64,000 nucleotides of DNA. It comes from Sipunculus nudus (lineage: Eukaryota; Annelida; Sipuncula; Golfingiida; Sipunculidae). Position 1 is the stretch's first letter. Each line of letters starts with the position of its first letter. Both the position numbers and the translations under genes were made by a program. The notes under the pieces were generated by a model. That model was not told where the DNA came from, searched no databases, and worked only from the letters and a program-made list of their open reading frames with translations. Positions 6,219-64,000 of this stretch are shown here, in pieces. The DNA is taken from assembly GCA_026874595.1 (NCBI GenBank), contig CM049313.1:79786659-79850658 (forward strand). The letters are read 5' to 3'.

Positions 6219-9200
6219 TAGCTCAGCTGACTATAAGTCATCTGAGCTATAGTCGTGGTCCATTGTCCGTCGTCTGTCCGTCTGGATGTCCGTCAGTAAG
6301 ACTGGCACGTTTCGACACCGTTGGACCTACGAATCTGAAATTCGGCATACAGTTAGATGTCCCCAAAATCTCCTACCATGCCCAAAATTGGGTCAATAGG
6401 ACTATGTTCCTTCGAAATATTAAGGAAAAACCTCAATTTTTTTATTAGAAATCTATTTTTACACTTCAGGAATACCTAATATCAAAACCACTCATCTGGT
6501 TTTCTTCATATTTACCATAAATATTCCTCTATATAGTTCCTATGTACATGCCAGAAATTAAGTCAGTATTGTTTAATTTAAAAAAGTTATGGGCCCAAAC
6601 ATAATGGACTTTGTAAAAAAATCAGGAAAGATATTTGGTCACTTAAGACCAAAAATGTTAAAGGTAGGGACTTTTTTTCAGTAATACAACATTAATTAAT
6701 CAAAATTTAATTGTATACCAAAAATAAGATCAAAATCTGTTAAATTTTTTTAAATATTGGCGAAAATATAAAATTGGTACCTTAAATTTTGCCCAACTTT
6801 GGACTTTGTAAAAAAATCAGGAAAGATATTTGGTCACTTACGACCAAAAATGTTAAAAGTAGGGACTTTTTTTCAGTAATACAACATTAATTAATCAAAA
6901 TTTAATTGTATACCAAAAATTAGATCAAAATCTGTTAAATTTTTTTAAATATTTGCAAAAATATAAAATTGGTACCTTAAATTTTGCCCAACTTTGGCCA
7001 AGGCATGTTTTTTTCCTGTAAGTACTGTGGATTTAATTTTCACAGCATGTACACATAAGGATTTTATCTGTTAAAATCTGAATTTTGAAAATAAAAGCTG
7101 CAAAATTAGGCTAGTTATTGAATTTTTTAGAGGCTCTTGTTGTATTCCCTTACATTGTCAAGCAGTCCACTTTGATGACTGTAGGTCATTCAGTGCACAT
7201 CTCTATGCTCCCCAGGCTGTTGGCATAATTTAGATGTCCCCAAAATCTCCTACCAAACCGAAAATTAGATCATTAGGACTTCGTTCCTTCGAGATATTAA
7301 GGAAAAACCTCCGTTTTCCATAAAAAAGCCATTGTTACACTTCAAGGCTGCCTAATATCAAAACCACTGATCTGTTTTTGATCATATTTAGTATTCACAT
7401 TCTTTTATACATTTTCTATGAACATACCAAAAACTAGGTCAGTATTGGGTATTATTTTGAAGTTATGGGCCAAAATATAATGCAGTTTTTAAAAAAATCA
7501 GGAAATTTATTTACTCACCTAACATGAGAATTGCTGAACCTAGAGACTTTTTTTCAGGAATATAACTTTATTTAATCAAGATTCAATTGTTTACCCAAAA
7601 TTAGATATAATTTTGCAATTTTTTCAAGTTATTTGCATAAATAAAAAATCAGTACCTTAAATTTTGTCCAACTTTGGCACTGTTGATTTAATTTTCACAG
7701 CATATAAACATAAGGATTTAATCTTTTAAAATCTGAAATTTCAAAGAAATTGATTGGAAAGAATAGCTTTTATTCACGTTTTCATACACCATGTCAAGTG
7801 TTGTTTACATCTAGCCCACCTAGTAGTACAGCCTTCACTTGCATTATGTAACACACCCCAGGCAGCTTGCCTTGGCTAAGCTTGGCCACTACCAGCAGGC
7901 TTCCCCTCTGCCCTGCACTCATCCCCCCCCCCCCCCCCCCAGCTGGTGCATAAACTAGATGAATGTTATAATTTTCTGTATTTTATTTTCTTCTTGGACG
8001 TGCTACATTTTAGATTTTGTATTGTACCACCAGGGTTACAATGATTTAAGTGTACATTTAATTGTGTCCACAAAGTGGTGTATTGCTGTGAAAGTGTGGA
8101 TGTTCATGAGATAAGTAATTCCTTACTTCAGAAGAGTAAAAACTTCACCAGGTGTGAAATTGACTATTAATTCCAGTAATAAATTAAAACTGGGATAGTA
8201 ATTAGCACAATGATATTGTTTGTCCCTCATTCAACCAACAGTGTGTATACTTTATTTGAAAAGATGTTTTATTTTATCAAATTTACTGAATCTTTTATTT
8301 TATTTTGGTGAATAAAATTAAGCATGTACTGAAAACTCCAGTGTGCAAAACTTTTTAATAGTGATTCAAGAAATATTCTTGTAGATGCCATGTTATGGCA
8401 TTATTTTCTTTTAAATTCAGTTTAAACATTTATGATTTAAAAATAATAAAATATATGTGTATGCATAATATGACCCAATATGAGCTACACTCTGGATATA
8501 TGATGATTGCAACTTTTGCAACAATTCTAATATTTAAACTTATAGTTTCAGTTTTTTACTCTGTATATATAATGATTGCAACTTTTGCAACAATTCTAAT
8601 ATTTTAACTTATATTTTCAGTTTTTTTATTAAAAATTTATAAAACCTGTAAATAAAAAAAAAATTCAGATAAAAGTTTCTTAATGGAAAAGTGGATATGC
8701 TTTAAAGAAATAGGCTTATATATAAACTTAAATGCATTATTCCCTTGAAAGTGAAATAAAGGTATTAGTCCATTCTGTCCACTTGCCTGTCCATCTGTAT
8801 ATTTTCATATGCATCACAGTATCTCAAAACTTTACTGTTTTTCTTCATGACAGTCTTGTCAGAGTATTAGTTTGCAATCATATATTTAGAAATTTACTAT
8901 AACCAAGTAGGAGGGCCCCTTTCCTCTTAGCTTTTCATATTCTTATATAAATGCAAAACATTACAATATAATATTTCTACATCCACCTTTGTGCTGCCCT
9001 CACTTTTCCCTTCTCCGACCCCATCCCAAAGTCAGCCTCAGTAAGCAAGAACAAGATGAATCAGATATATTCATACTTTAATATTTTGTACAACTATTCA
9101 TCCATAGGTACCTATGTACATGCCAGAAATTATGTCAATATTGTGTAATATGTAGACATAGTGGGCATCACAATAATGTACCTTGTCAAGACTAAAGAGA

Positions 9201-16271: not shown

Positions 16272-16314
16272 GTCAGATGAATGGTCCAGGTCGTGGACGA
16301 GGAAGAGGAGCAAG
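16272..16314 (+). CDS. UBAP2/UBAP2L homologue, exon 3 (RG-rich microexon)
   Basis: A 43-bp microexon after TAATGTTTCAG and before donor GTTAGT. With the carried G it reads GQMNGPGRGRGRGAR, continuing the RG-rich segment. It starts in phase 1 and ends with two bases (AG) that join the next exon to give Arg. A 47-bp tandem array begins about 27 bp downstream of its donor. The frame stays open past the donor for a few codons and then meets a stop, as expected for intron sequence. Confidence 0.7.
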
Positions 16315-16340: not shown

Positions 16341-17095
16341 AAGCCCTCATGATCAAGGTGTGCAATGGTCTAATATGCAGTTCTACATTCAGAAAGCCCT
16401 CACAGCATGCAATGGTCTAACATGTGGTTCTACATTCAGAAAGGCCTCACAGCATGCAATGGTCTAACATGTGGTTCTACATTCAGAAAGGCCTCACAGC
16501 ATGCAATGGTCTAACATGTGGTTCTACATTCAGAAAGGCCTCACAGCATGCAATGGTCTAACATGTGGTTCTACATTCAGAAAGCCCTGACAGCATGCAG
16601 TGGTCTAACATGTAGTTTTACATTCAGAAAGCCCTCATAGCATGCAATGGTCTAACATGTGGTTCTTTATTCAGAAAGTTCTCACAGTGAGCAATGGGGT
16701 AATATGTGGTTCTATATTCAGAAAGCCCTCATAGCATGCAATGGTCTAACATGGTTCTTTATTCAGAAAGCTCTCACAGTGAGCAATGTTCTAATATGTG
16801 GTTCTACATTCAGAAAGCCCTAATAGCGTGCGTTGCTCTAAAATGTTGTTCTACATTCAGAAAGCCCTAACAGTGTGCATTTCTCTTAAATGTTGTTCTA
16901 CATTCAGAAAACCCTCACAGCATGCATTGCTCTAACATGAAGTTCTAAAATCAGAAAGCCCTAACAGCGTGCATTGCTGTTAAATGTGGTTAAACATTCA
17001 GAAAGCCCTAACAGGGTGCATTGCTCTAAAATGTGGTTCTACATTCAGAAAGCCCTAACAGGGTGCATTGCTCTAACATGTGGTTCTACATTCTG
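16341..17095. repeat. 47-bp minisatellite downstream of exon 3
   Basis: About 16 copies of a 47-bp unit containing TTCTACATTCAGAAAG and AGCATGCAATGGTCTAACAT. The copies at 16430-16570 are nearly identical and those further right are diverged, so the array homogenises from its left side. Each unit contains TTCTACATTCAG, which reads like a weak splice acceptor. No frame is kept open over the whole array. Confidence 0.85.
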
Positions 17096-17179
17096 AACCA
17101 AATGTAGTACTAAATAAATTAACTGTCCATCATGTATAAATGTATTGTACGGCCAGTATGCAAAGGGATGATTATAGTT

Positions 17180-26041: not shown

Positions 26042-26301
26042 CTGGAAGAAAGTAAAGTGTTCACGGCCAAGCAGAATACAGACTCTAAGTTCTTCCCACC
26101 ACCAGGTGTAGGGGACAATGACGCATCAATGTTTCAGCCACCACCCCCCAATATTCCACTGGAAACAACGGTATTCACAAACAGCATGGTGTCAACTGCC
26201 ACAAATGGAGGTATGGGCCTGTCTGATGGGAGTAATTCCTTGAACCATCCGTCAGCAATGCCCCCGGCACCAGGGCTTCATCAGCCACCATTGGGACAGA
26301 G
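26042..26301 (+). CDS. UBAP2/UBAP2L homologue, exon 6 (Pro-rich)
   Basis: A 260-bp exon, 86 codons plus two bases, after CTGTTTGTCAG and before donor GTAGGT. It begins LEESKVFTAKQNTDSKFFPP, runs through a Pro-rich stretch (MFQPPPPNIPLE) and ends PGLHQPPLGQR. The opening matches the SETKIFTAS motif of UBAP2L and the closing GQR matches the place of GQRIDLAVLLGK. The last 20-25 bp of the exon plus the donor are tandemly repeated about 13 times into the following intron, so this exon is the parent of that array. A family-A element ends 59 bp upstream of the acceptor. Confidence 0.8.
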
Positions 26302-26925
26302 GTAGGTGAACATGAACTAGCAGTGCTTTTTTAGCCTCCATTGGGACAGCTGTAGGTGAACATATGCTAGCAGTGCTTTATCAACCAACTTTGGGGCAGA
26401 GGTAGGTGAACATGAACTAGCAGTGCTCCAGCCACTGTTTGGACAGTTATTGGTGGACATGAACTAGCAGTGCTTCATCAGCCTCCATTTGGACAGTTAT
26501 AGGTGAACATGAACTAGTAGTGCTTCATCAACCTCCAATGGGACAGATATAGGTGCTCCAGCCACCGTTTGGACAGTTATTGGTGGACATGAACTAGCAG
26601 TGCTCCATCCGCCAGCATTGGGACAGAGGTAGGTTAACTTGAACTGGCAGTGCTCCATCCGCCAGCATTGGGACAGAGGTAGGTGAACATGAACTAGCAG
26701 TGCTTCATCAACCTCCATTGGGACAGAGACAGGTAAACATGAACTAGCAGTGCTCCATCCATCACCATTGGTAGGTTAACATGACCTTGCAGTGCTTCAT
26801 TAACCTCCACTGGGACAAAATAGGTGAACATGAACAAGCAGTGCTCCATCAGCCATCATAGTGACAGAGTTACGTGAACATGAACTAGCAGTGCTTCATC
26901 AACCTCCATTGGGACCAGTGAATGT
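26302..26925 (+). repeat. 50-bp tandem array of the exon 6 end plus splice donor
   Basis: About 13 copies of a unit that begins with the real intron start GTAGGTGAACATGAACTAG and runs into a copy of the exon end (CATCAxCCxCCATTGGGACAG). The first periods are exactly 50 bp (26302, 26352, 26402). Several copies keep G|GTAGGTGAAC, for example at 26402 and near 26678, and are credible donors; others are mutated (ATAGGT, TTGGTG). The array starts at the genuine donor, so it arose by tandem duplication across the exon-intron border. Confidence 0.85.
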
Positions 26926-27148
26926 TCTGGCCTCTGGCCATGTCCAGTGCTATAGAATTTTAAATTACATAAAAAGAAAATGTTTGTGTACTGTTTGTGT
27001 ACTGTAGTCCATTGGTCATGAATCAGGAATGATAACAAAGCATATTGTTATGCTACAAATGGAATATCAGTTAAATTAAAATCAGCAGTGCCAGTGCACA
27101 ACATATTCTTTTATATTAATAACAGAACTTTATGCCCACTACCACAAG
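26926..27148. other. Unique intron between arrays
   Basis: No element ends or coding sequence. Short frames here are chance frames. Confidence 0.35.
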
Positions 27149-28065
27149 TTATATGGGCCCCGCTTGACAAGCGGTGCCCTATAGTGATCACTGTGTCAGT
27201 CCGTACTTCCGTCCTTTCGTCAGTGACACTTTCTTTCGCGCGTGATAACTCAACAACAACATACTTCAGCTTTCCCAAATACACAGGGATGATTGGTACA
27301 TATGAGGGCTCCAGACCTATTGAATTACAGACCTGTTGGAATTCCAATATGGCCTCAACAGCCAAATCCCTCATTTTCTTTTGCACTCGATAACTCAACA
27401 ACAACATTCTTCAGCTTTCCCAAATTCACAGGAATGATTGGTCCTTATAAGGGTTCCAGCCCTATCGAATAACAGACCTGTCTGAATTCAACTATGGTGG
27501 CCACAGCCTAATTGTTGATTTTCTTTCCCGCGCAATAACTCAACAACAACATATTTCAGCTTTCCCAAATTCACAGGGATGATTGGTACATATAAGGGCT
27601 CCAGACCTATTGAATTACAGACCTGTCCAAATTCCAATATGGCCACCACAGCCCAAAAGCTGATTTTCTTTTGCAAGCAATAACTCAACAACAACATACT
27701 TCAGCTTTCCCTAATTCACCGTGTGATTGGTACATATGAGGGCTCCAGACCTATTGAATTACAGACCTGACAGAATTCCAGTATGGCTGCCACAGCCCAG
27801 TTGCTGATTTTCTTTCTCGCACGATTTTTCAACAGCAACATACTTCAGCTTTCCTAAATTCACAGGGATGATTGATACATATGAGGGCTCCAGACCTATT
27901 GAATTACAGACCTGTCTGAATTTCTTTTGCGCGTGATAACTCAACAACAACTTACTTCAGCTTTCCCATATTCACAGAGATGATTGGTACCTATAAGGGC
28001 TCCATCTCTATCGAATTGCAGACCTGTTGAAATTCCAATATGGCTGCAATTGCACAATCATTTGT
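27149..28065 (+). repeat. Approximately 145-bp tandem array, probably a Helentron-like 5' part
   Basis: Begins with a hairpin-like CCCGCTTGACAAGCGG and CCCTATAGTGATCAC, then about six units with AACTCAACAACAACATACTT and CAGACCTATTGAATTACAGA. A similar 5' start (CAAGTGGATGCCCTATACTAATCACC) is at about 45665. No matching 3' terminus was found; the family-A element at 28066 interrupts it. The 60-100 residue frames on both strands are the same repeat. Confidence 0.6.
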
Positions 28066-30686
28066 TAACTCAGCTGACTATAAGTCATCCGAGCTATAGT
28101 CGTGGTCCATTGTCCGTCGTCCGTCCGTCTGTCTTGCCGTCCGTCCGTCCTTCTGTCCGGATGTCCGTCCGTAAGACTGGCACGTTTCGACACCGTTGGA
28201 CCTAAGAATCTGAAATTCTGCATACAGTTAGATGTCCCCAAAATCTCCTACCATGCCGAAAATTGGGTCAATAGGACTATGTTCCTTCGAAATATAAAGG
28301 AAAAACCTCAATTTTTTATTAGAAATCTATTTTTAAACTTCAGGACTGCCTAATATCAAAACCAATCGTCTGGTTTTCTTCATATTTACCATAAATATTC
28401 CTCTATATAGTTCCTATGTACATGCCAGAAATTAAGTCAGTATTGTTTAATTTTAAAAAGTTATGGGCCCAAACATAATGGACTTTGTAAAAAAATCAGG
28501 AAGATATTTGGTCACTTAAGACCAAAAGTGTTAAAGGTAGGGACTTTTTTTCAGTAATACAAATTTACTTAATCAAAATTTAATTGTATACCAAAAATTA
28601 GATCAAAATCTGTTAAATTTTTTTAAATATTGGCAAAAATATAAAATTGGTACCTTAAATTTTGCCCAACTTTGGCCACAGCACGGTTTTTTCCTGTAAG
28701 TACTGTGGATTTAATTTTCACAGCATGTACACATAAGGATTTAATCTGTTAAAATCTGAAATTTGAAAATAAAAGCTGCAAAATTAGGCTAGTTATTGAA
28801 TTTTTTTAGAGGCTCTTGTTGTATTCCCTTACATTGTCAAGCAGTCCACTTTGATGACTGTAGGTCATTCAGTGCACATCTCTGTGCTCCCCAGGCTGTT
28901 GGCATAATTTTAGATGTCCCCAAAATCTCCTACCAAACAAAAAATTTGGCCATTAGGACTTTGTTCCTTCGAGATATTAAGGAAAAACCTCTGTTTTCCA
29001 TTAAAAAAAGCCATTGTTACACTTCAAGGCTGCCTAATATCAAAACCACTGATCTGTTTCTGATCAGATTTAGTATTCACATTCTTTAATACATTTTCTA
29101 TGAACATACCAAAAATTAGGTCAGTATTGGGTATTATTTTGAAGTTATGGGCAAAAATATAATGTAATTTAAAAAAAAAAACAGGAAATTTATTTACTCA
29201 CCTAACATGAGAATTGCTGAACCTAGAGACTTTTTTCAGGAATATAACTTTATTTAATCAAGATTCAATTGTTTACCCAAAATTAGATATGAATTTTGCA
29301 AATTTTTCAAGTTATTTGCATAAATAAAAAATCAATACCTTAAATTTTGTTCAACTTTGGCTCTGTTGATTTAATTTTCACAACATATATACATCAGGAT
29401 TTAATCTTTTAAAATCTGAAATTTCAAAGAAATTGATTGGAAAGAATAGCTTTTATTCATGTTTTCATACACCATGTCAAGTGTTGGCTTCCCCTCTGCC
29501 CTGCACTCCCCCCCCCCCCCCAGATGGTGCATAAACTAGATGAATGTTATTATTTTCTGTATTTGATTCATTCTTATTCTAGGCTATGCTACATTTTAGA
29601 TTTTGTATTGTACCACCAGGGTTTCTACATCCACCTCAGCCTCAGTAAGCAAGAACAAGATGAATCAGATATATTCATACTTTAATATTTTGTATAACTA
29701 TTCGTCCATAGGTACCTATGTACATGCCAGAAATTATGTCAATATTGTGTAATATGTAGACATAGTGGGCATCACAATAATGTACCTTGTCAAGACTAAA
29801 GAGATATTGTGTAATACAGTCACAAATTCATAAATCACTTCATCAGCATAGTTAATCATAACATCATATCTGTCAAATTGAAAGCTTGCATTTACTGTTT
29901 TTTACTTCATGACAGTCTTGTCAGAGTATTAGTTTGCAATCATATATTTAGAACTTTACTTTAACCAAGTAGGAGGGCCCCTTTCGTCTTAGCTTTTCAT
30001 ATTCTTATATAAATGAAAAACATTACAATAGAATATTTCTACATCCACCTTCGTGCTGCCCTCACTTTTCCCTTCTCCGAACCCCATCCCAAAGTCAGCC
30101 TCAGTAAGCAAGAACAAGATGAATCAGATATATTCATACTTTAATATTTTGTATAACTATTCATCCATAGGTACCTATGTACATGCCAGAAATTATGTCA
30201 ATATTGTGTAATATGTAGACATAGTGGGCATCACAATAATGTACCTTGTCAAGACTAAAGAGATATTGTGTAATACAGTCACACATTCATAAATCACTTC
30301 ATCAGCATAGTTAATCATAACATCATATCTGTCAAATTGAAAGCTTGCAGACTACCATACACTTTAGATCCTTCAACAAATAACCTAATCATCATTCTAC
30401 TACTGCTTATTACTGCTGTCATTGCATTCATATTTGCTCAAATATATCACAATTTTTAACCCCTCCTAAATAAATAAAAAATAAACCACTATATTTGACT
30501 CTATTAATCCATCAGTCAGGTTATTTCATTTATCATTTACTCGCATATTACATTACATTCCTTTATAATAGCCCAACATGTCCATGATATTCATAAGCTT
30601 AATCGACTCTATATAGTATCACAGTGGAGAAACATTTATAGTCCAATCACGATCAGCTGAGCGCCGTGACCCATGGGTCCCTTGTT
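28066..30686 (+). mobile_element. Family A Helentron-like element in the middle of the duplicated-splice-site intron
   Basis: The 5' end is slightly changed (TAACTCAGCTGACTATAAGT), followed by the GTCC microsatellite. It ends CAGCTGAGCGCCGTGACCCATGGGTCCCTTGTT. Relative to 18556-21726 it has a deletion near 29630 and an internal duplication of about 470 bp (TCCATAGGTACCTATGTACA near 29704 and 30165). The empty site of element B is present at 30401-30420. Poly-C at about 29507-29520. Confidence 0.7.
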
Positions 30687-31386
30687 TTCTTTTTCCAGGC
30701 TGATGCATTGGTCAACGTGTAATAACTTGTTTAAAATAATACTGTGACCACAATTTTTTGTGTTAAAATTTATTATGTAGTTTCTCTAATATAATGAATT
30801 GTCCATTGTTCCCCTTATTTACTGTATAGAATGACAAAATCTGCGTTTTAGCATCCCTCTGTGTGGTTACAAAAATAAGGTGTTCACACATTCAACTATT
30901 TCTATTATATTGTAAGATGATGTTTACCAAACAGTTGACCAAATGTAATAACAATTGTTTATATATACGTAGCACTTAGACAATACACAGTGGAGAGGTG
31001 TCACTTGCCCACGAACAGGTGGCTCTGAAAAAGGGGGTTTCCAGGGCTTAAGCTCGGGTCTTGGTCAAAACATTGTTACTATATTTTGGGCTTTGGGAAG
31101 TCATGTAAACCTCTCATGTGGGGCTTAAGTCATTGCAACAAGACCCCAGTTATTTAAGTCGGAATACATGTACTGGTTTTGACTGCAGGAGGATGAAAGA
31201 CTCTGTGCCTTTTCATTGACCAGATTAGCTTGACTGGTTTTCAGTGCTTACAGTCTTCAAACATTTGAAAATCATTTTGCAGACCAGATTTTCCATCTGG
31301 AATTTTATAGAAGCAAAGTCCCAGTAAATTTTGACTTGAGAATGTCATATTGTTACTGACCAGGTATTTAAATCAGTAATTTTGTA
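30687..31386. other. Unique intron before the acceptor array
   Basis: No coding sequence or element ends noticed over about 700 bp. Confidence 0.35.
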
Positions 31387-32194
31387 ACAGACTGGGGCTT
31401 GGTCTTTATTTTGTTTTGTATTTTACAGACTGGGGTTGGTCTTTATTTTGGTTTGTATGCTACAGACTGGGGCTGGTCTTTATTTTGGCATGTATGTTAC
31501 AGACTGGGGCTTGGGTCTTTATTTTGGTTTGTTTGTAACAGACTGGGGCTTGGTCTTTATTTTGTTTTGTATTTTACAGACTGGGGTTGGTCTTTATTTT
31601 GGTTTGTATGTTACAGACTGGGGCTGGTCTTTATTTTGGCATGTATGTTACAGACTGGGGCTTGGGTCTTTATTTTGGTTTGTATGTTACAGACTGAGGC
31701 TTGGCCTTTATTTTGTTTTGTATTATACTGACTGGGGGCTTAGTCTTTATTTTGGTTCTTATGTTACAGACTGGGGCTTGGTCTTTATTTTGTTTTGTAT
31801 TATAGTTTATACATACCAGGGGCTTGGTCTTTATTTTGTTTTGTAAGTTATAGACTGGGGCTTGGTCTTTATTATAGTTTGTATTTTACAGACCTGGGTT
31901 GGTCTTTATTTTGTTTTGTATGTTACACACTGGGACTTGGGTCTTTATTTTAGTTTGTATGTTACAGACTGGGGCTTGGTCTTTATTTTGTTTTGTATTT
32001 TACAGACTGGGGTTGGTCTTTATTTTGGTTTGTATGTTACAGACTGTGGCTTGGTCTTTATTTTGGTTTGTATGTTACAGACTGGGGCTTGGTCTTTATT
32101 TTGGTTTGTATGTTACAGACTGGGGCTTTGTTTTTATTTTGGTTTGTATGTTACAGACTGGGGCTTGGTCTTTATTTTGGTTTGTATGTTACAG
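31387..32194 (+). repeat. 38-bp tandem array of the exon 7 splice acceptor
   Basis: About 22 copies of a 38-bp unit (some 37 or 39) made of ACTGGGGCTTGG, a pyrimidine-rich GTCTTTATTTTGGTTTG and TATGTTACAG. The last copy is the real acceptor and exon start (ACAG at 32191-32194). Most copies keep ACAG; a few are mutated (ATACTGAC near 31726, ATAGAC near 31848, ACACAC near 31923). The unit has no TAA, TAG or TGA in any + frame, which explains the 110-198 residue overlapping frames; these are not independent genes. Confidence 0.88.
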
Positions 32195-32480
32195 ACTGGG
32201 GCTTGGTATGTTGGGCTTAAACGACAAGTCTGGAGGGGAGGCCCCAGGAGGGTCATCATCTCAGCAACAATCTCAGTTCATGAGCCAGTTTGCAAAACAG
32301 GCAACAGAATCGATAAAGAACGCAGTCGGGATTGGTTCCTCACCACCAGCAAACCAATCTGCAAACGCTGCTGTGACACAACCTAGTCAGCCCACGCCAC
32401 CTGTAGGGCAAAATCAACAACAGTCATCCTTACAGCAACAGAGAAAGCCACAGCGAACCAAGTTGCCACCACCCTCCAAG
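32195..32480 (+). CDS. UBAP2/UBAP2L homologue, exon 7 (Gln-rich)
   Basis: A 286-bp exon ending at donor GTTAGC. It reads (R)LGLGMLGLNDKSGGEAP, then QQQSQFMSQFAKQATESI, a Gln/Pro-rich stretch and finally RKPQRTKLPPPSK. GQR|LGLGMLGLNDK across the junction resembles GQRIDLAVLLGK of UBAP2L, and TKLPPPSK|IPASAVEMPG fits the family block. The chosen start is the last of about 22 tandem copies of the same acceptor. Upstream copies are also plausible acceptors and all frames stay open there, so the true start could be further 5' in some transcripts. The Met codon and GLNDK part is unique sequence beyond the repeat. Confidence 0.75.
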
Positions 32481-33264
32481 GTTAGCATTTGTTAAACGGA
32501 TAATGTTTTATCCACTTTGGTTTAAAGAATCAACTGGCTCAGTAAATTTTAAAATAAATTGTTAGTTTCAGTAGTGATATGTTTTAAGTGTGATTTAACA
32601 AATGTAACCAAATAAGCCCATTTTTTTTAACAAACGACCTTAGAGCATTCTTATATACTACAAACCATTTATTCAGTGTATGTCTCTAATTTCCCAATAT
32701 TCATGTGGTTATTTAAATTTCCTGATATTCACGAATGGGAAATAATCATGAATATGAAACCCTTGGGAATAAGTTGCCCCATTAACTAGTATGATGCATC
32801 TACACAAACAGATTAGTTATTACACCTCTGGGAACATGGTTTGGTAATGAACCCTAACCCTAACTAATATGTGAATGGTATTGAAACCAGCTCATGCAGA
32901 CATGCAATAGTAATTGTAAAAAATTTGACTGTGACACAGGTCATAGTGCAATGACTGTAACAGAAATGAGTCGGGTATTATGGGATTTATTATTTTATAA
33001 TAAATGCAAAACTGTTGCACTAAAAACTCATAAGTTCTTGTGGAATCATGAAAAATAAAACCCTCATGAAATGTTCACAGTGATAAATCTTGCAAAATTT
33101 CAGCATCTCCAATATGAAACCAACCACAGTATTGGTTTTATTAACATTATTAGTCGCTTAGGTGGTAAAACATTTTGTTGGTTAGGGTTATTAGTCACTA
33201 CTGGTGTTGACACATTTTATTGGTTCACATCTGTATTCAAGGAAGAGACCCATTTAATTGACAG
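32481..33264. other. Intron between exons 7 and 8, unique sequence
   Basis: No element ends. A short stretch near 33112-33146 (CCACAGTATTGGTTTTATTA) is shared with 41002-41037 beside a reverse-transcriptase fragment; its origin is unclear. Confidence 0.4.
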
Positions 33265-33428
33265 ATTCCTGCATCTGCAGTGGAGATGCCAGGTCACATG
33301 GTCGGCTTCCCACTAGACGTACAGTTTGGCAATTGGGATCTCAGTAATGAAACATCTGCTTACGCCAGCTACACAAATTCAGCAGACACGGTGTCGTCAG
33401 GAGCGATATATTCTGGTTCTTCAGCAGG
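33265..33428 (+). CDS. UBAP2/UBAP2L homologue, exon 8: family-diagnostic block
   Basis: A 164-bp exon after ATTTAATTGACAG and before GTAAGA. It reads IPASAVEMPGHMVGFPLDVQ and then FGNWDLSNETSAYASYT, ending SGSSAG. The IP-x-x-AVEMPG ... LDVQFG pattern is the most conserved short block of UBAP2, UBAP2L and lingerer (DUF3697 in Pfam, by my recollection), the region implicated in G3BP1 binding by human UBAP2L. It is the strongest evidence for the gene's identity. It starts in phase 0 and ends with two bases (GG) completed by the first base of exon 9. Confidence 0.88.
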
Positions 33429-55211: not shown

Positions 55212-56757
55212 AAAAAATCAGGAAATATATTTACTCACCTAACATTAGAATTGCTGAAGCTAGAGACTTTTTTTCAGGAATGTAACTTTATTTAATCAAG
55301 ATTCAATTGTTAACCAAAAATTAGTTCTGAATTTTTCAAATTTTAAAGGTTATTAGTATAAATATAAAATTAGTACCTTAAATTTTGCGCAACTTTGACC
55401 ATGGCACGTTTTTTCCCTGTAAGTGCTGTTGATTTAATTTTCATATCATGCACACATAAGGATTTCATCTTTGTAGATCAGAAAGCTGAAAGAAATTGGC
55501 CAAATATTGTAGCTTTTATTAATGTTTATATGAGACCATGTCAGACTCAGGCTTAATCCAGCCCCTCTTCAGTCACCTGTATGTTGACCTTGCTGACCTT
55601 TCATCAGATTATGCATGCTTGAGCGAAGCATACACTGGGGCAGCCAGGCAGCTAATGCCCAGCCACAATTGATCCAGAGGTCCAACCCAACTCATCTAGT
55701 TGTTGTTTTGAAAAACAACATAACAATAAACAATAAATTAATAATTTTGTATTGGTTTTTTTAACAAATTAAAGAAAAATTGATAGAAAAAGAAATTTGT
55801 TAGTTGATGAGTAACAGAAAATTAACTTGCACTTACTGATGATGTAAGAATCTTGTATGGATGGATAGAATGTCAATGTCAATGTTATTACAAATAACAC
55901 CATGCAGTCACCTATGGTATTTTTAAGTTAAATTTTAATGATAAAAAAATAAATCATATTATTCATTACTATTCATTAGGGATCATATGAAGGAAATTAA
56001 TGATAGACAAAGATGCAGTTGATAATATTAATCTAGATTCCTTCTGTGTCTAGTGTGTAGATTGATGTGAAAGTAGTCCAAAGTGAATATATTACATTTA
56101 TTTTTTTTAATATAAATAAAAGCCATAAAACCAGGTACTTATGATCATTATTTAAATTTGTGAATTTTGTATATTCTGGATTCTCAACATCTTTGTTTGG
56201 CTAAAACTGAATAAATACTAGACATGGTGCGAATGCTTTGCAAATGTATTTGAATACGAATATGAATATGTACTGCATTAAAAAAAATTATTGCATAAGA
56301 ATGGGAATTCAGGTAAAAATGAAAGTATTTGAATACCAGTGCAGACACTTTCAAAATGTATTCATGAATGCAATCATGAATATATTCTATAATATTATTT
56401 CAATTATCATTTCAGTTATATTTTATTTTTAAAAAATCATGATTTTCTTATTATTTTTTTAATAAAAATTATATTGGCACAATATTTGTTATTAAATTTT
56501 AATAAATATTTAAACTCTTTTATAATATGTGCTGCTTATAAGTTATATGGCCAAGTCAAAATCTGTGTGACGATCGCACTCCATTTGTAAATAAAATAAA
56601 AGAAATCAATCCTCTTCCCTGTCTCCAAAGATACTATCAAAATCATACATAAGCTAAACACCAACAACTCATAATAAAGCTTATATTTATTACCACACAA
56701 AACAAGCATTTTTATCATATATAACAGCTGAGCGCCGTGACCCATGGGTCCCTTGTT

Positions 56758-59700
56758 ATACATTAGTTTCTGTGAGCTTCAGCTAAGTATACCATTATTT
56801 CATTGTTTTTATACATGATTAGTTTCTGTGAGCTTCAGCTAAGTATACCATTATTTCAGTGTTTTTATACATAAGTTTCTGTGAGCTTCAGCTAAGTATA
56901 CCATTATTTCAGTGTTTTTATACATGATTAGTTTCTGTGAGCTTCAGCTAAGTATACCATTATTTCAGTGTTTTTATACATTAGTTTCTGTGAGCTTCAG
57001 CTAAGTATACCATTATTTCAGTGTTTTTATACATTAGTTTCTGTGAGCTTCAGCTAAGTATACCATTATTTCAGTGTTTTTATACATTAGTTTCTGTGAG
57101 CTTCAGCTAAGTATACCATTATTACAGTGTTTTTATACATGATTAGTTTCTGTGAGCTTCAGCTAAGTATACCATTATTTCAGTGTTTTTATACATGATT
57201 AGTTTCTGTGAGCTTCAGCTTAGTATACCATTATTTCAGTGTTTTTATACATGATTAGTTTCTGTGAGCTTCAGCTAAGTATACCATTATTTCAGTGTTT
57301 TTATACATGATTAGTTTCTGTGAGCTTCAGCTAAGTATCCCATTATTCAGTGTTTTTATACATGATTAGTTTCTGTGAGCTTCAGCTAAGTATACCATTA
57401 TTTCAGTGTTTTTATACATTAGTTTCTGTGAGCTTCAGCTAAGTATACCATTATTTCAGTGTTTTTATACATGATTAGTTTCTGTGAGCTTCAGCTAAGT
57501 ATACCATTATTTCAGTGTTTTTATACATTAGTTTCTGTGAGCTTCAGCTAAGTATACCATTATTTCAGTGTTTTTATACACTAGTTTCTGTGAGCTTCAG
57601 CTAAGTATACCATTATTTCAGTGTTTTTATACATGATTAGTTTCTGTGAGCTTCAGCTAAGTATACCATTATTTCAGTGTTTTTATACATGATTAGTTTC
57701 TGTGAGCTTCAGCTAAGTATACCATTATTTCAGTGTTTTTATACATTAGTTTCTGTGAGCTTCAGCTAAGTATACCATTATTTCAGTGTTTTTATACATT
57801 AGTTTCTGTGAGCTTCAGCTAAGTATCCCATTATTTCAGTGTTTTTATACATTAGTTTCTGTGAGCTTCAGCTAAGTATCCCATTATTTCAGTGTTTTTA
57901 TACATTAGTTTCTGTGAGCTTCAGCTAAGTATACCATTATTTCAGTGTTTTTATACATTAGTTTCTGTGAGCTTCAGCTAAGTATACCATTATTTCAGTG
58001 TTTTTATACATTAGTTTCTGTGAGCTTCAGCTAAGTATACCATTATTTCAGTGTTTTTATACATTAGTTTCTGTGAGCTTCAGCTAAGTATACCATTATT
58101 TCAGTGTTTTTATACATTAGTTTCTGTGAGCTTCAGCTAAGTATCCCATTATTTCAGTGTTTTTATACATTAGTTTCTGTGAGCTTCAGCTAAGTATCCC
58201 ATTATTTCAGTGTTTTTATACATTAGTTTCTGTGAGCTTCAGCTAAGTATACCATTATTTCAGTGTTTTTATACATTAGTTTCTGTGAGCTTCAGCTAAG
58301 TATACCATTATTTCAGTGTTTTTATACATTAGTTTCTGTGAGCTTCAGCTAAGTATACCATTATTTCAGTGTTTTTATACATTAGTTTCTGTGAGCTTCA
58401 GCTAAGTATCCCATTATTTCAGTGTTTTTATACATTAGTTTCTGTGAGCTTCAGCTAAGTATCCCATTATTTCAGTGTTTTTATACATTAGTTTCTGTGA
58501 GCTTCAGCTAAGTATACCATTATTTCAGTGTTTTTATACATTAGTTTCTGTGAGCTTCAGCTAAGTATACCATTATTTCAGTGTTTTTATACATTAGTTT
58601 CTGTGAGCTTCAGCTAAGTATACCATTATTACAGTGTTTTTATACATGATTAGTTTCTGTGAGCTTCAGCTAAGTATACCATTATTTCAGTGTTTTTATA
58701 CATGATTAGTTTCTGTGAGCTTCAGCTTAGTATACCATTATTTCAGTGTTTTTATACATGATTAGTTTCTGTGAGCTTCAGCTAAGTATACCATTATTTC
58801 AGTGTTTTTATACATGATTAGTTTCTGTGAGCTTCAGCTAAGTATCCCATTATTCAGTGTTTTTATACATGATTAGTTTCTGTGAGCTTCAGCTAAGTAT
58901 ACCATTATTTCAGTGTTTTTATACATTAGTTTCTGTGAGCTTCAGCTAAGTATACCATTATTTCAGTGTTTTTATACATGATTAGTTTCTGTGAGCTTCA
59001 GCTAAGTATACCATTATTTCAGTGTTTTTATACATTAGTTTCTGTGAGCTTCAGCTAAGTATACCATTATTTCAGTGTTTTTATACACTAGTTTCTGTGA
59101 GCTTCAGCTAAGTATACCATTATTTCAGTGTTTTTATACATGATTAGTTTCTGTGAGCTTCAGCTAAGTATACCATTATTTCAGTGTTTTTATACATGAT
59201 TAGTTTCTGTGAGCTTCAGCTAAGTATACCATTATTTCAGTGTTTTTATACATTAGTTTCTGTGAGCTTCAGCTAAGTATACCATTATTTCAGTGTTTTT
59301 ATACATTAGTTTCTGTGAGCTTCAGCTAAGTATCCCATTATTTCAGTGTTTTTATACATTAGTTTCTGTGAGCTTCAGCTAAGTATCCCATTATTTCAGT
59401 GTTTTTATACATTAGTTTCTGTGAGCTTCAGCTAAGTATACCATTATTTCAGTGTTTTTATACATTAGTTTCTGTGAGCTTCAGCTAAGTATACCATTAT
59501 TTCAGTGTTTTTATACATTAGTTTCTGTGAGCTTCAGCTAAGTATACCATTATTTCAGTGTTTTTATACATTAGTTTCTGTGAGCTTCAGCTAAGTATAC
59601 CATTATTTCAGTGTTTTTATACATTAGTTTCTGTGAGCTTCAGCTAAGTATCCCATTATTTCAGTGTTTTTATACATTAGTTTCTGTGAGCTTCAGCTAA

Positions 59701-61704
59701 GTATCCCATTATTTCAGTGTTTTTATACATTAGTTTCTGTGAGCTTCAGCTAAGTATACCATTATTTCAGTGTTTTTATACATTAGTTTCTGTGAGCTTC
59801 AGCTAAGTATCCCATTATTTCAGTGTTTTTATACATTAGTTTCTGTGAGCTTCAGCTAAGTATACCATTATTTCAGTGTTTTTATACATTAGTTTCTGTG
59901 AGCTTCAGCTAAGTATACCATTATTTCAGTGTTTTTATACATTAGTTTATGTGAGCTTCAGCTAAGTATACCATTATTTCAGTGTTTTTATACATTAGTT
60001 TCTGTGAGCTTCAGCTAAGTATACCATTATTTCAGTGTTTTTATACATTAGTTTCTGTGAGCTTCAGCTAAGTATCCCATTATTTCAGTGTTTTTATACA
60101 TTAGTTTCTGTGAGCTTCAGCTAAGTATCCCATTATTTCAGTGTTTTTATACATTAGTTTCTGTGAGCTTCAGCTAAGTATACCATTATTTCAGTGTTTT
60201 TATACATTAGTTTCTGTGAGCTTCAGCTAAGTATACCATTATTTCAGTGTTTTTATACATTAGTTTCTGTGAGCTTCAGCTAAGTATACCATTATTTCAG
60301 TGTTTTTATACATTAGTTTCTGTGAGCTTCAGCTAAGTATCCCATTATTTCAGTGTTTTTATACATTAGTTTCTGTGAGCTTCAGCTAAGTATCCCATTA
60401 TTTCAGTGTTTTTATACATTAGTTTCTGTGAGCTTCAGCTAAGTATACCATTATTTCAGTGTTTTTATACATGATTAGTTTCTGTGAGCTTCAGCTAAGT
60501 ATCCCATTATTTCAGTGTTTTTATACATTAGTTTCTGTGAGCTTCAGCTAAGTATACCATTATTTCAGTGTTTTTATACATGATTAGTTTCTGTGAGCTT
60601 CAGCTAAGTATCCCATTATTTCAGTGTTTTTATACATTAGTTTCTGTGAGCTTCAGCTAAGTATACCATTATTTCAGTGTTTTTATACATGATTAGTTTC
60701 TGTGAGCTTCAGCTAAGTATACCATTATTTCAGTGTTTTTATACATGATTAGTTTCTGTGAGCTTCAGCTAAGTATCCCATTATTTCAGTGTTTTTATAC
60801 ATGATTAGTTTCTGTGAGCTTCAGCTAAGTATACCATTATTTCAGTGTTTTTATACATGATTAGTTTCTGTGAGCTTCAGCTAAGTATCCCATTATTTCA
60901 GTGTTTTTATACATTAGTTTCTGTGAGCTTCAGCTAAGTATACCATTATTTCAGTGTTTTTATACATTAGTTTCTGTGAGCTTCAGCTAAGTATACCATT
61001 ATTTCAGTGTTTTTATACATTAGTTTCTGTGAGCTTCAGCTAAGTATCCCATTATTTCAGTGTTTTTATACATTAGTTCTGTGAGCTTCAGCTAAGTATC
61101 CCATTATTTCAGTGTTTTTATACATTAGTTTCTGTGAGCTTCAGCTAAGTATCCCATTATTTCAGTGTTTTTATACATTAGTTTCTGTGAGCTTCAGCTA
61201 AGTATACCATTATTTCAGTGTTTTTATACATTAGTTTCTGTGAGCTTCAGCTAAGTATCCCATTATTTCAGTGTTTTTATACATTAGTTTCTGTGAGCTT
61301 CAGCTAAGTATACCATTATTTCAGTGTTTTTATACATTAGTTTCTGTGAGCTTCAGCTAAGTATACCATTATTTCAGTGTTTTTATACATTAGTTTCTGT
61401 GAGCTTCAGCTAAGTATACCATTATTTCAGTGTTTTTATACACGATTAGTTTCTGTGAGCTTCAGCTAAGTATCCCATTATTTCAGTGTTTTTATACATT
61501 AGTTTCTGTGAGCTTCAGCTAAGTATCCCATTATTTCAGTGTTTTTATACATTAGTTTCTGTGAGCTTCAGCTAAGTATCCCATTATTTCAGTGTTTTTA
61601 TACATTAGTTTCTGTAAGCTTCAGCTAAGTATCCCATTATTTCAGTGTTTTTATACATTAGTTTCTGTGAGCTTCAGCTAAGTATCCCATTATTTCAGTG
61701 TTTT
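56758..61704. repeat. Approximately 5-kb minisatellite, 53- and 56-bp units
   Basis: Roughly 90 units built around GTTTCTGTGAGCTTCAGCTA, AGTATACCATTATTTCAGTG and TTTTTATACATTA. Unit length is 53 bp (TACATTAG) or 56 bp (TACATGATTAG), and a second variable site is ATACC or ATCCC. Rare private variants (ATTACAGTG, GCTTAGTATACC, ATTATTCAG, ACACTAG) recur 1,507 bp apart, which shows a higher-order duplication. There is no long open frame. It is intronic if the gene continues past the window. Confidence 0.92.
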
Positions 61705-64000
61705 TAGCTCAGCTGACTATAAGTCATCTGAGCTATAGTCGTGGTCCATTGTCCGTCGTCCGTCCGTCTGTCCGTCCGTCCGTCCGTCCGTAGATGTGGC
61801 ACGTTTTGAAACCGTAAGACCTAGGAATCCAAAATTCGGCATAATGTTAGATGTCCCCAAGATCTCCTACCAAGCCGAAAACTGGGTCTTTGCAACTTCG
61901 TTCCTTTGAGAAATTAAGGAAAAACCTCAATTTTTTATTAAAAACCTATTTTCACACTTTAGGACTGGCTCATATCAAAACCACTCATCTGTTTTTCCTC
62001 ATATTTACCATAAATATTCCTCTATATAGTTCCTATGTACATGCCAGAAATTATGTCTGTATTATTTAATTTAAAAAAGTTCTGGGCCCAAACATAATGC
62101 ATTTTGAAAAAAATAAGGAAAGATATTTGATCACTTAACACAAAAAATGTTAAAGCTGTGGACCTTTTTTCCAGTAATATAACTTTAATTAATCAAAATT
62201 AAATTGTATACCCAAAATTAGATGAAAATCTTTTAAATTTTTTAAAATATTAATAAAAATAAAAAATTGGTACCTTAAATTTTGCCCAACTTTGACCATG
62301 GCACGTTTTTTTCCTGTAAGTACTGTGGATTTAATTTTCACAGCATGTTTTTGTCAGCATTTCAACTGTTAACACCAAAAATTTGAAACCAGTTGATCAA
62401 AAACTGTAGATTTTAATCAAGTTTTCAAGCACCTTGTAACATATTGTTTACATCAAGCTAGTGTTATGCAGTTTGCAAAAGCTCAGCTCCCAAGCTTCAG
62501 CTCTAAGTTCCTTAAATTCAGCATACAGTTAGATGTCTCCAAAATCCCCTACCATGCCAAGAATTTGGTCACTAGGACTTAATACCTTCGAGATATTAAT
62601 GAAAAACTTCATTTTTTCATTAAAAACCCATTGTTACACTTCAAGACTGCCTAATATCAAAACCACTGATCTGACTTTAATCATAAACAATATACATATT
62701 TTTCATTCTCTATGCACATCCCTGAATGATGTCAGTATTGCTTAATTGTTTTAAGTTATGGGCCCAAACATAATGCACTATGTAAAAAATCAAGAAATAT
62801 ATTTACTCCCTTAACAAGGGCATTGCTAGAGATTTTTTTGTCAGGGATGTAACATTATTTAATCAAGATTCAATTGAATACCCAAAATTAGTTCTGAATT
62901 TTTCAAATTTTATAAGTTATTAGTAAAAATATAAAATTAGTACCTTAAATTTTGCCCAACTGTGACCATGGCACGTTTGTTTCCCGTGAGCACTGTTGAT
63001 TTAATTTTCATATCATGCACACATAAGGATTTCAGCTTTTTAGTTTAGAAAGCTGAAAGAAATTGGCCAAAAATTGTAGCTTTTATTAATGTTTTTTATG
63101 AGACCCTGTCAGACTTTGGCTCTCTCCAGCCCCTCTTGAGTCACCTGTATGTTGACCTTGTTGACCTTTCATCAAATTATGCACGCTTGAGGCGAGGCAT
63201 ACAGGAATCCAGGCAGCTTATGGCCAGCCACAGTTGATCCAGGTGTCCAACCCAACTCATCTAGTAGTTTTAACCAACAACATAACAATAAACAACAAAT
63301 TAATAAATTTTTATTGGTTTTTAATAACAAATTAAAGAAAAATAGAAAAGGAATTTGTTAGTTTATAATAACAGGAAATTAACTTGCAGTTACTGATGAT
63401 ATAAGAATCTTGTATCGATGGGTAGAATGTCACATATTCCAAATAACACCATGGAGTCACCTATGGCATTTTTCAGTTCAATTTTAATGATAAAGAAGTA
63501 AATCATATTATTCATTACTAATCATTAGGGATCATGTGAAGGAAATTAATGATAGACAAAGATGCAGTTCATAATATTAATCTAGATTCCTACTGTGTCT
63601 AGTGTGTACATTGATGTGAAATTAGTCCAAAATGAATTTTTTACAGTTATTTTTTAATATAAATAAAAGCCATAAAACCAGGTACTTATGATCATTATTT
63701 AAATGTGTGAATTTTGTATATTCTGGATTCTCAACATCATTGTTTGGTGAAAATTGAATAAATACCAGACATGGTGCGAATACTTTATAATTGTATTTAA
63801 ATACGAATATGATTATGTACTCCATTATAAAATTTCTTGCATAAAGAATGGGAATTCAGGTAAAAATGAAAGTATATGAATACTCGTGCAAATACTTTCA
63901 AAATGTATTCATGAATGCATTCATGAATATATTCTTTAATATTATTTTAATAATCATATCAGTTATATTTCATTTTAAAAAATCATATGATTCTCTTATT
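61705..64000 (+). mobile_element. Family A element running off the window
   Basis: The 5' TAGCTCAGCTGACTATAAGT with a long GTCCGTCCGTCC run, inserted after CAGTGTTTT of the last minisatellite unit. It follows the same subtype as 50963-56757 (for example GTAGCTTTTATTAATGTTTT near 63076 and 55508). No 3' end before 64000. No coding capacity. Confidence 0.7.

Follow-up and report, generated by a model that had tools for sequence, protein, structure and literature searches.

Minisatellites spanning the splice sites at both ends of one intron in a predicted UBAP2-family gene of Sipunculus nudus

Introduction

Minisatellite-like duplications of exon-intron boundaries have been described in amphioxus under the name of mirages, which, in the part of the report available to us, occur in Adh3 and in globin genes and at both 5′ and 3′ boundaries (PMC3087553). 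As at the locus described here, the units of these mirages (Adh3; BflGb6 and BflGb9) span the boundary, and many but not all copies keep the AG or GT. The 3′ and 5′ globin cases lie in different genes in the available text, with six or three units in BflGb6 and one duplicate in BflGb9, and RT-PCR results suggested that mirages leave regular splicing undisturbed (PMC3087553).

Comparable cases are known in humans, again as far as the available parts of the sources go. A 31-bp VNTR at the boundary of exon 13 and intron 13 of CBS is, like one of the arrays found here, a multi-copy repeat at a donor boundary (PMC5188458), with 16-21 repeats (PMC2630376); it differs in affecting a single end of one intron and in being known to be polymorphic and to be associated with activity. 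The CBS variant c.844_845ins68 likewise duplicates a junction, that of intron 7 and exon 8, and the distal copy is strongly favoured in splicing (PMC2630376), although it is a single duplication and forms no array; the source calls the sites concerned donor sites, and the title of a study cited there speaks of 3′ splice sites. Tandem repeats in human paralogs also involve minisatellite expansion at boundaries, which can alter gene structure and activate cryptic splice sites; unlike the arrays described here, they are described as lying inside exons, where they may give rise to novel introns, a transcript retaining the repeat often being seen as well, and the available part of that paper describes no double-ended intron (PMC2812944).

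The titles and abstract openings of the literature searched, mostly non-subscription, described neither molluscan nor double-ended boundary arrays. A further relative is the AGGT model of intron gain, in which one tandem duplication supplies both splice sites. The likeness lies in a tandem duplication that copies splice signals, and the difference in that the two ends of the intron studied here have unrelated units.

We describe an intron with a boundary-spanning array at each end. The initial annotation of the locus knew of no standard class of element that does this to both ends of one intron; amphioxus mirages, which affect 5′ and 3′ boundaries (PMC3087553), and the single-ended human CBS cases, in so far as their sources were available, speak against that view. 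The kind of array is already described, and the locus has the look of repeats that grew around splice sites, not of a novel system. Compared with the amphioxus globin mirages, as they appear in the available text, this intron has both ends affected and more copies. What is new is modest: the double-ended intron, a rate for boundary arrays in a sample of one genome, and a very long donor array in a kinase gene.

Anatomy of the two arrays

The window, by which we mean the whole 64,000-nt stretch of DNA analysed, corresponds to C8:79786659-79850658 within a 1.43-Gb genome of 153 contigs. Judged by its sequence, the gene in the window is a member of the UBAP2/lingerer family. We first recognised a motif of the family and then searched the genome with the PF12478 profile, and we take the single match reported from the whole genome, which falls in the window gene, to establish the family identity. 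A Pfam search with four translated pieces gave no match. The exons flanking the intron join in phase 2 (AG + A) in an open frame, and the coordinates of all features are collected in Table 1.

Table 1. Features of the double-ended intron and its gene, with the long donor array found in the genome survey (a slash marks a splice junction)
Feature	Position	Strand	Basis or description
Exon upstream of the intron (exon 6 of the initial annotation)	26042..26301	+	Open frame, phase-2 join; acceptor tttgtcag/CTGGAA; ends GGACAGAG
Donor-spanning minisatellite, 50-bp unit, 13 full copies and one partial	26271..26915	+	TRF, wrap-around alignment
Genuine 5′ splice site, GAG/gtaggt	26302..26307	+	Reading frame; 10.8 bits (79th percentile among 85 donors predicted in this genome)
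Intron, 5,893 bp, phase 2	26302..32194	+	Other tandem repeats in the middle
Acceptor-spanning minisatellite, 38-bp unit, about 22 copies	31383..32207	+	TRF, wrap-around alignment
Genuine 3′ splice site, ...tatgttacag/ACT	32175..32194	+	Reading frame, position; 11.1 bits (53rd percentile among 106 predicted acceptors)
Exon downstream of the intron (exon 7 of the initial annotation)	32195..32480	+	Open frame; ends TCCAAG/gttagc
UBAP2-Lig domain (PF12478)	33262..33348	+	Identifies the gene; E 1.9e-6, 39 bits against a cut-off of 22.2
L042 and L096	G000:C4, about 93857170-93861740		Kinase-gene donor repeated 72 times

The donor array was called by TRF in two parts (26271-26555 and 26582-26915, both of period 50), and its unit joins the last 27 nt of the exon (26275-26301) to the first 23 nt of the intron. 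TRF reported the acceptor array as a single call of 21.6 copies of period 38, together with a second period of 151 bp; here the last 25 nt of the intron and the first 13 nt of the next exon (32195-32207) make up the unit. In the wrap-around alignments the exon-joined copies of both arrays are near the consensus rather than divergent: the acceptor copy is identical to it, and the donor copy is one position off. Mean column conservation is 0.84 in the donor array and 0.94 in the acceptor array.

To measure recurrence, we compared the 40-nt segment centred on a boundary with the neighbouring intron by local score. The donor reaches 32 and the acceptor 33, whereas 18 is the highest score in 2,400 controls, for which boundary segments were taken from other loci. 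Across nine approximately placed exons of the window gene (18 boundaries), only these two boundaries exceed 12. A genome search, with a tool that skips simple repeats and very common words, matched each array at one place only, and neither search retrieved the other array. A dispersed satellite or transposon, whose unit would lie at other loci, does not fit this result. The arrays have two properties of mirages, namely a unit that spans the exon-intron boundary and a splice signal kept in many but not all copies. Mirages are further marked by regular splicing at the authentic boundary, by lengths that are unstable between haplotypes or in the soma, and by homogenisation within the cluster that bypasses the edge copies; on this last trait, the acceptor array shows its 151-bp period, but the exon-joined copies of both arrays are near the consensus. 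Both are real boundary-spanning minisatellites, and on this point the initial annotation, which had reported paired arrays at the two splice sites of one intron, is borne out.

Boundary arrays in the rest of the genome

We surveyed 120 exons of the same genome, 60 from kinase and 60 from kinesin genes, and ran TRF around their 240 predicted boundaries. The exons were picked by hand for the lack of internal stops and form a non-random sample, which includes exons that adjoin one another in a single gene as well as several overlapping regions; their boundaries were predicted with a generic consensus, and 191 of them (85 donors and 106 acceptors) form a better-scored subset. An array was counted as spanning a boundary if it covered at least 5 nt on each side. 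The array scan also took in a further 30 kinase loci (L005-L034), which are not part of the 240 called boundaries.

TRF arrays span five of the 240 boundaries: the donors of L042 and L087 and the acceptors of L079, L142, and L154. The recurrence score added the acceptor of L132 (score 26), which was confirmed by eye. This gives six in 240 (2.5%, 95% interval 0.9-5.4%), or two of 120 donors and four of 120 acceptors; all six are among the better-scored boundaries (3.1% of 191). Arrays of this type are common in the sampled part of this genome, at about one in forty borders. A very long one is the donor array of the kinase gene L042, with 72 copies over 4,575 bp, 69 of which keep the GT. L060, whose recurrence score of 18 equals the control maximum, was left out after inspection, which suggested a misplaced acceptor. 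At L035, L103, L124, and L151, minisatellite arrays begin or end no more than 30 bp from a predicted splice site but do not extend across it, and these were not counted.

Arrays cover 4.8% of the flanking intron sequence (4,944 of 101,984 bases, with overlapping regions counted twice). The boundary rate from TRF, five in 240, does not exceed this coverage, so the boundaries are not enriched for arrays. The five TRF boundaries are in fact slightly under random expectation (P(≤5) = 0.023; P(≤6) = 0.052 with six), in a test that is rough, since arrays are clumped, some regions overlap, and the counting rule demands 5 nt inside the exon.

If a rate of 2-3% holds, boundary arrays would routinely supply this genome with redundant splice sites instead of being a peculiarity of individual amphioxus genes, and direct comparisons could be made among introns affected at one end, at both, or at neither. 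The window locus is itself a natural test of how the spliceosome chooses among many near-identical sites.

The ABC-transporter family (PF00005) was dropped from a second survey, since all 19 of its scored matches (among 819 candidates) fell on contigs C61-C138. These matches lie in open frames and suggest that bacterial DNA is present in the assembly on those contigs.

Splice signals and reading frame across the copies

We regard the locus, with a probability of roughly 0.8, as two independent boundary-spanning minisatellites, or mirages, in which the surplus copies act as decoys within the intron. On this reading, a short stretch across the exon-intron junction would have undergone tandem duplication at either end of the intron, and the duplicates would then have multiplied through slippage or unequal exchange. 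The copy joined to the exon body would keep the reading frame and stay a working splice site, and the remaining copies would drift as decoys inside the intron. We infer both this mutational mechanism of array growth, for which slippage or unequal exchange is a plausible source, and the use by RNA of mainly the exon-proximal copies. The principal alternative is that the arrays regulate splicing, either because decoys compete and array length tunes the amount of productive UBAP2-family mRNA or because upstream in-frame acceptors lengthen the protein. The splice signals and the reading frame bear on both readings.

Sites were scored with models trained on the 85 donors and 106 acceptors predicted in this genome, the six array cases included. 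Three other donor copies match the 10.8 bits of the first donor, and the remainder are weak or lack a GT; in the real register the GT is kept in six of 13 donor copies and lost in seven. In the acceptor array the AG is present in 18 of 21 full copies (19 of 22 over all copies counted), and most AG-bearing copies score inside the normal range of this genome. Many upstream acceptor copies equal the 11.1 bits of the last copy, and three reach 13.1, so the acceptor model does not single out the exon-proximal copy and upstream acceptors may be used.

For the reading frame, we tested 342 pairings (18 donor GTs, in two registers, with 19 acceptors), and only four are in frame and free of stops. All four start from the first donor, with acceptors at 32195, 32081, 32006, and 31892, the last three adding 38, 63, and 101 residues, respectively. 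From any donor copy after the first, every pairing loses the frame or meets a stop. On the mirage reading, the arrays look anchored at the splice sites because only the copy adjacent to the exon body keeps the frame, together with the three in-frame copies at the acceptor. The initial annotation had listed many competing isoforms among the possible outcomes; on frame grounds, many productive isoforms are unlikely, though three of the four permitted pairings use upstream acceptors.

In both window arrays and in the L042 array, the splice dinucleotides are not clearly more conserved than other positions in the unit. Two-column windows with conservation as low as that of the dinucleotide or lower number seven of 50 in the donor unit, 12 of 38 in the acceptor unit, and 43 of 65 in the L042 unit. 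We therefore rejected functional constraint on every copy, the dinucleotides lying within the range of the other columns in the window arrays and in L042 (in the latter 0.96, against a mean of 0.93). At L142 all 11 copies counted have kept the AG, a pattern consistent with constraint. In the window donor unit, columns 29-31 are less conserved than any other three in a row, and column 13 is low by itself. Selection against decoy donors was considered and set aside as well, because seven of the 50 two-column windows have conservation no higher than that of the GT, and one change is common to several copies.

A regulatory role accords with the three upstream acceptors that keep the frame, with the score of the acceptor at 32006, which exceeds that of the genuine site, and with the retention of AG in most acceptor copies; in CBS, moreover, more 31-bp boundary-repeat units go with lower activity, according to the available part of that study (PMC5188458). 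However, later donor copies never give a usable frame, more than half of the donor copies have lost the real-register GT, and the dinucleotides show no clear preference in retention, so that we consider regulation unlikely. An extension, likewise unlikely, is that boundary-spanning arrays at a few percent of splice sites provide this genome with a large store of splice decoys that vary in length, and that here both arrays set splicing efficiency while the in-frame acceptors (+38, +63, and +101 residues) give protein variants that depend on copy number. On balance, the splice-signal, frame, and conservation data fit neutral repeat turnover with decoys.

Relationship between the two ends

The opposite end of the intron could be seen for four of the surveyed array cases (exon pairs L087-L095, L142-L157, L154-L138, and L132-L158), and none of the four introns has an array there. 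In these comparisons the neighbour status of the exons was inferred from their order along the domain model, and the L138 donor, which is the other end for L154, is a weak call (score -0.6). For L042 and L079 the opposite end could not be located, and the count does not include them. If arrays at the two ends are independent, the survey rates (two of 120 donors and four of 120 acceptors) predict about 56 double-ended introns per 100,000, or about 0.06%.

Duplex energies of the doubled units revealed no unusual pairing between the donor and acceptor units, 232 of 300 shuffles being as good or better, and donor-acceptor pairing was rejected. Among the three tests of this kind, the self-duplex comparisons gave 73 of 300 shuffles as good or better for the donor unit and two of 300 for the acceptor unit.

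One event or process might have affected both borders of the intron, such as damage linked to the spliceosome or to R-loops; the initial annotation had raised a common cause as speculation, naming template slippage or spliceosome-linked DNA damage. The presence of both arrays on one intron, a state expected for so small a fraction of introns under independence, is what this explanation would account for. It is nonetheless very unlikely: The unit lengths differ, the arrays do not find each other in searches, the units show no unusual pairing with each other, boundaries are not enriched over flanking intron (five in 240, against 4.8%), and each of the four single-array introns is free of an array at its other end. 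We found nothing that links the two ends, and the double end is best read as an uncommon coincidence.

Still less probable is that a tandemly duplicated AGGT stretch of exon gave rise to the intron itself. Such origins have been proposed from the amphioxus globin mirages (PMC3087553), and novel introns from boundary repeats have been reported in human paralogs (PMC2812944), as far as the available parts of these papers go. In an intron gained in this way, both sites would come from one segment; here the donor belongs to a 50-bp unit and the acceptor to a 38-bp unit, and no cross-match appeared at the sensitivity of the search. Finally, although tandem arrays are hard to assemble, an assembly artefact is scarcely credible, since the copies in both arrays have diverged, with private changes, which argues against duplication by the assembly, and comparable arrays are present elsewhere in the genome, at loci on different contigs.

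Other repeats in the window

The window is rich in repeats, and TRF arrays of period ≥20, merged by hand, make up about 31.5% of it. A 47-bp array of about 15.7 copies (16361-17097) begins about 47 bp past the donor of the exon ending at 16314 and is thus near a splice site without crossing it. Within the double-ended intron, the stretches 29628-29870 and 30090-30350 were seen by eye to be near-identical; translations similar to those of this pair occur near 9000 and 21100, and the stretches look like part of a dispersed repeat. An array of about 92 copies of a 53-bp unit (97% matches) extends from 56756 to 61706, directly after a short sequence ending GGGTCCCTTGTT. That sequence is found in near-identical form at about 11866, 25953, and 30655, and in a diverged version in L079, and could represent the terminus of a dispersed element.
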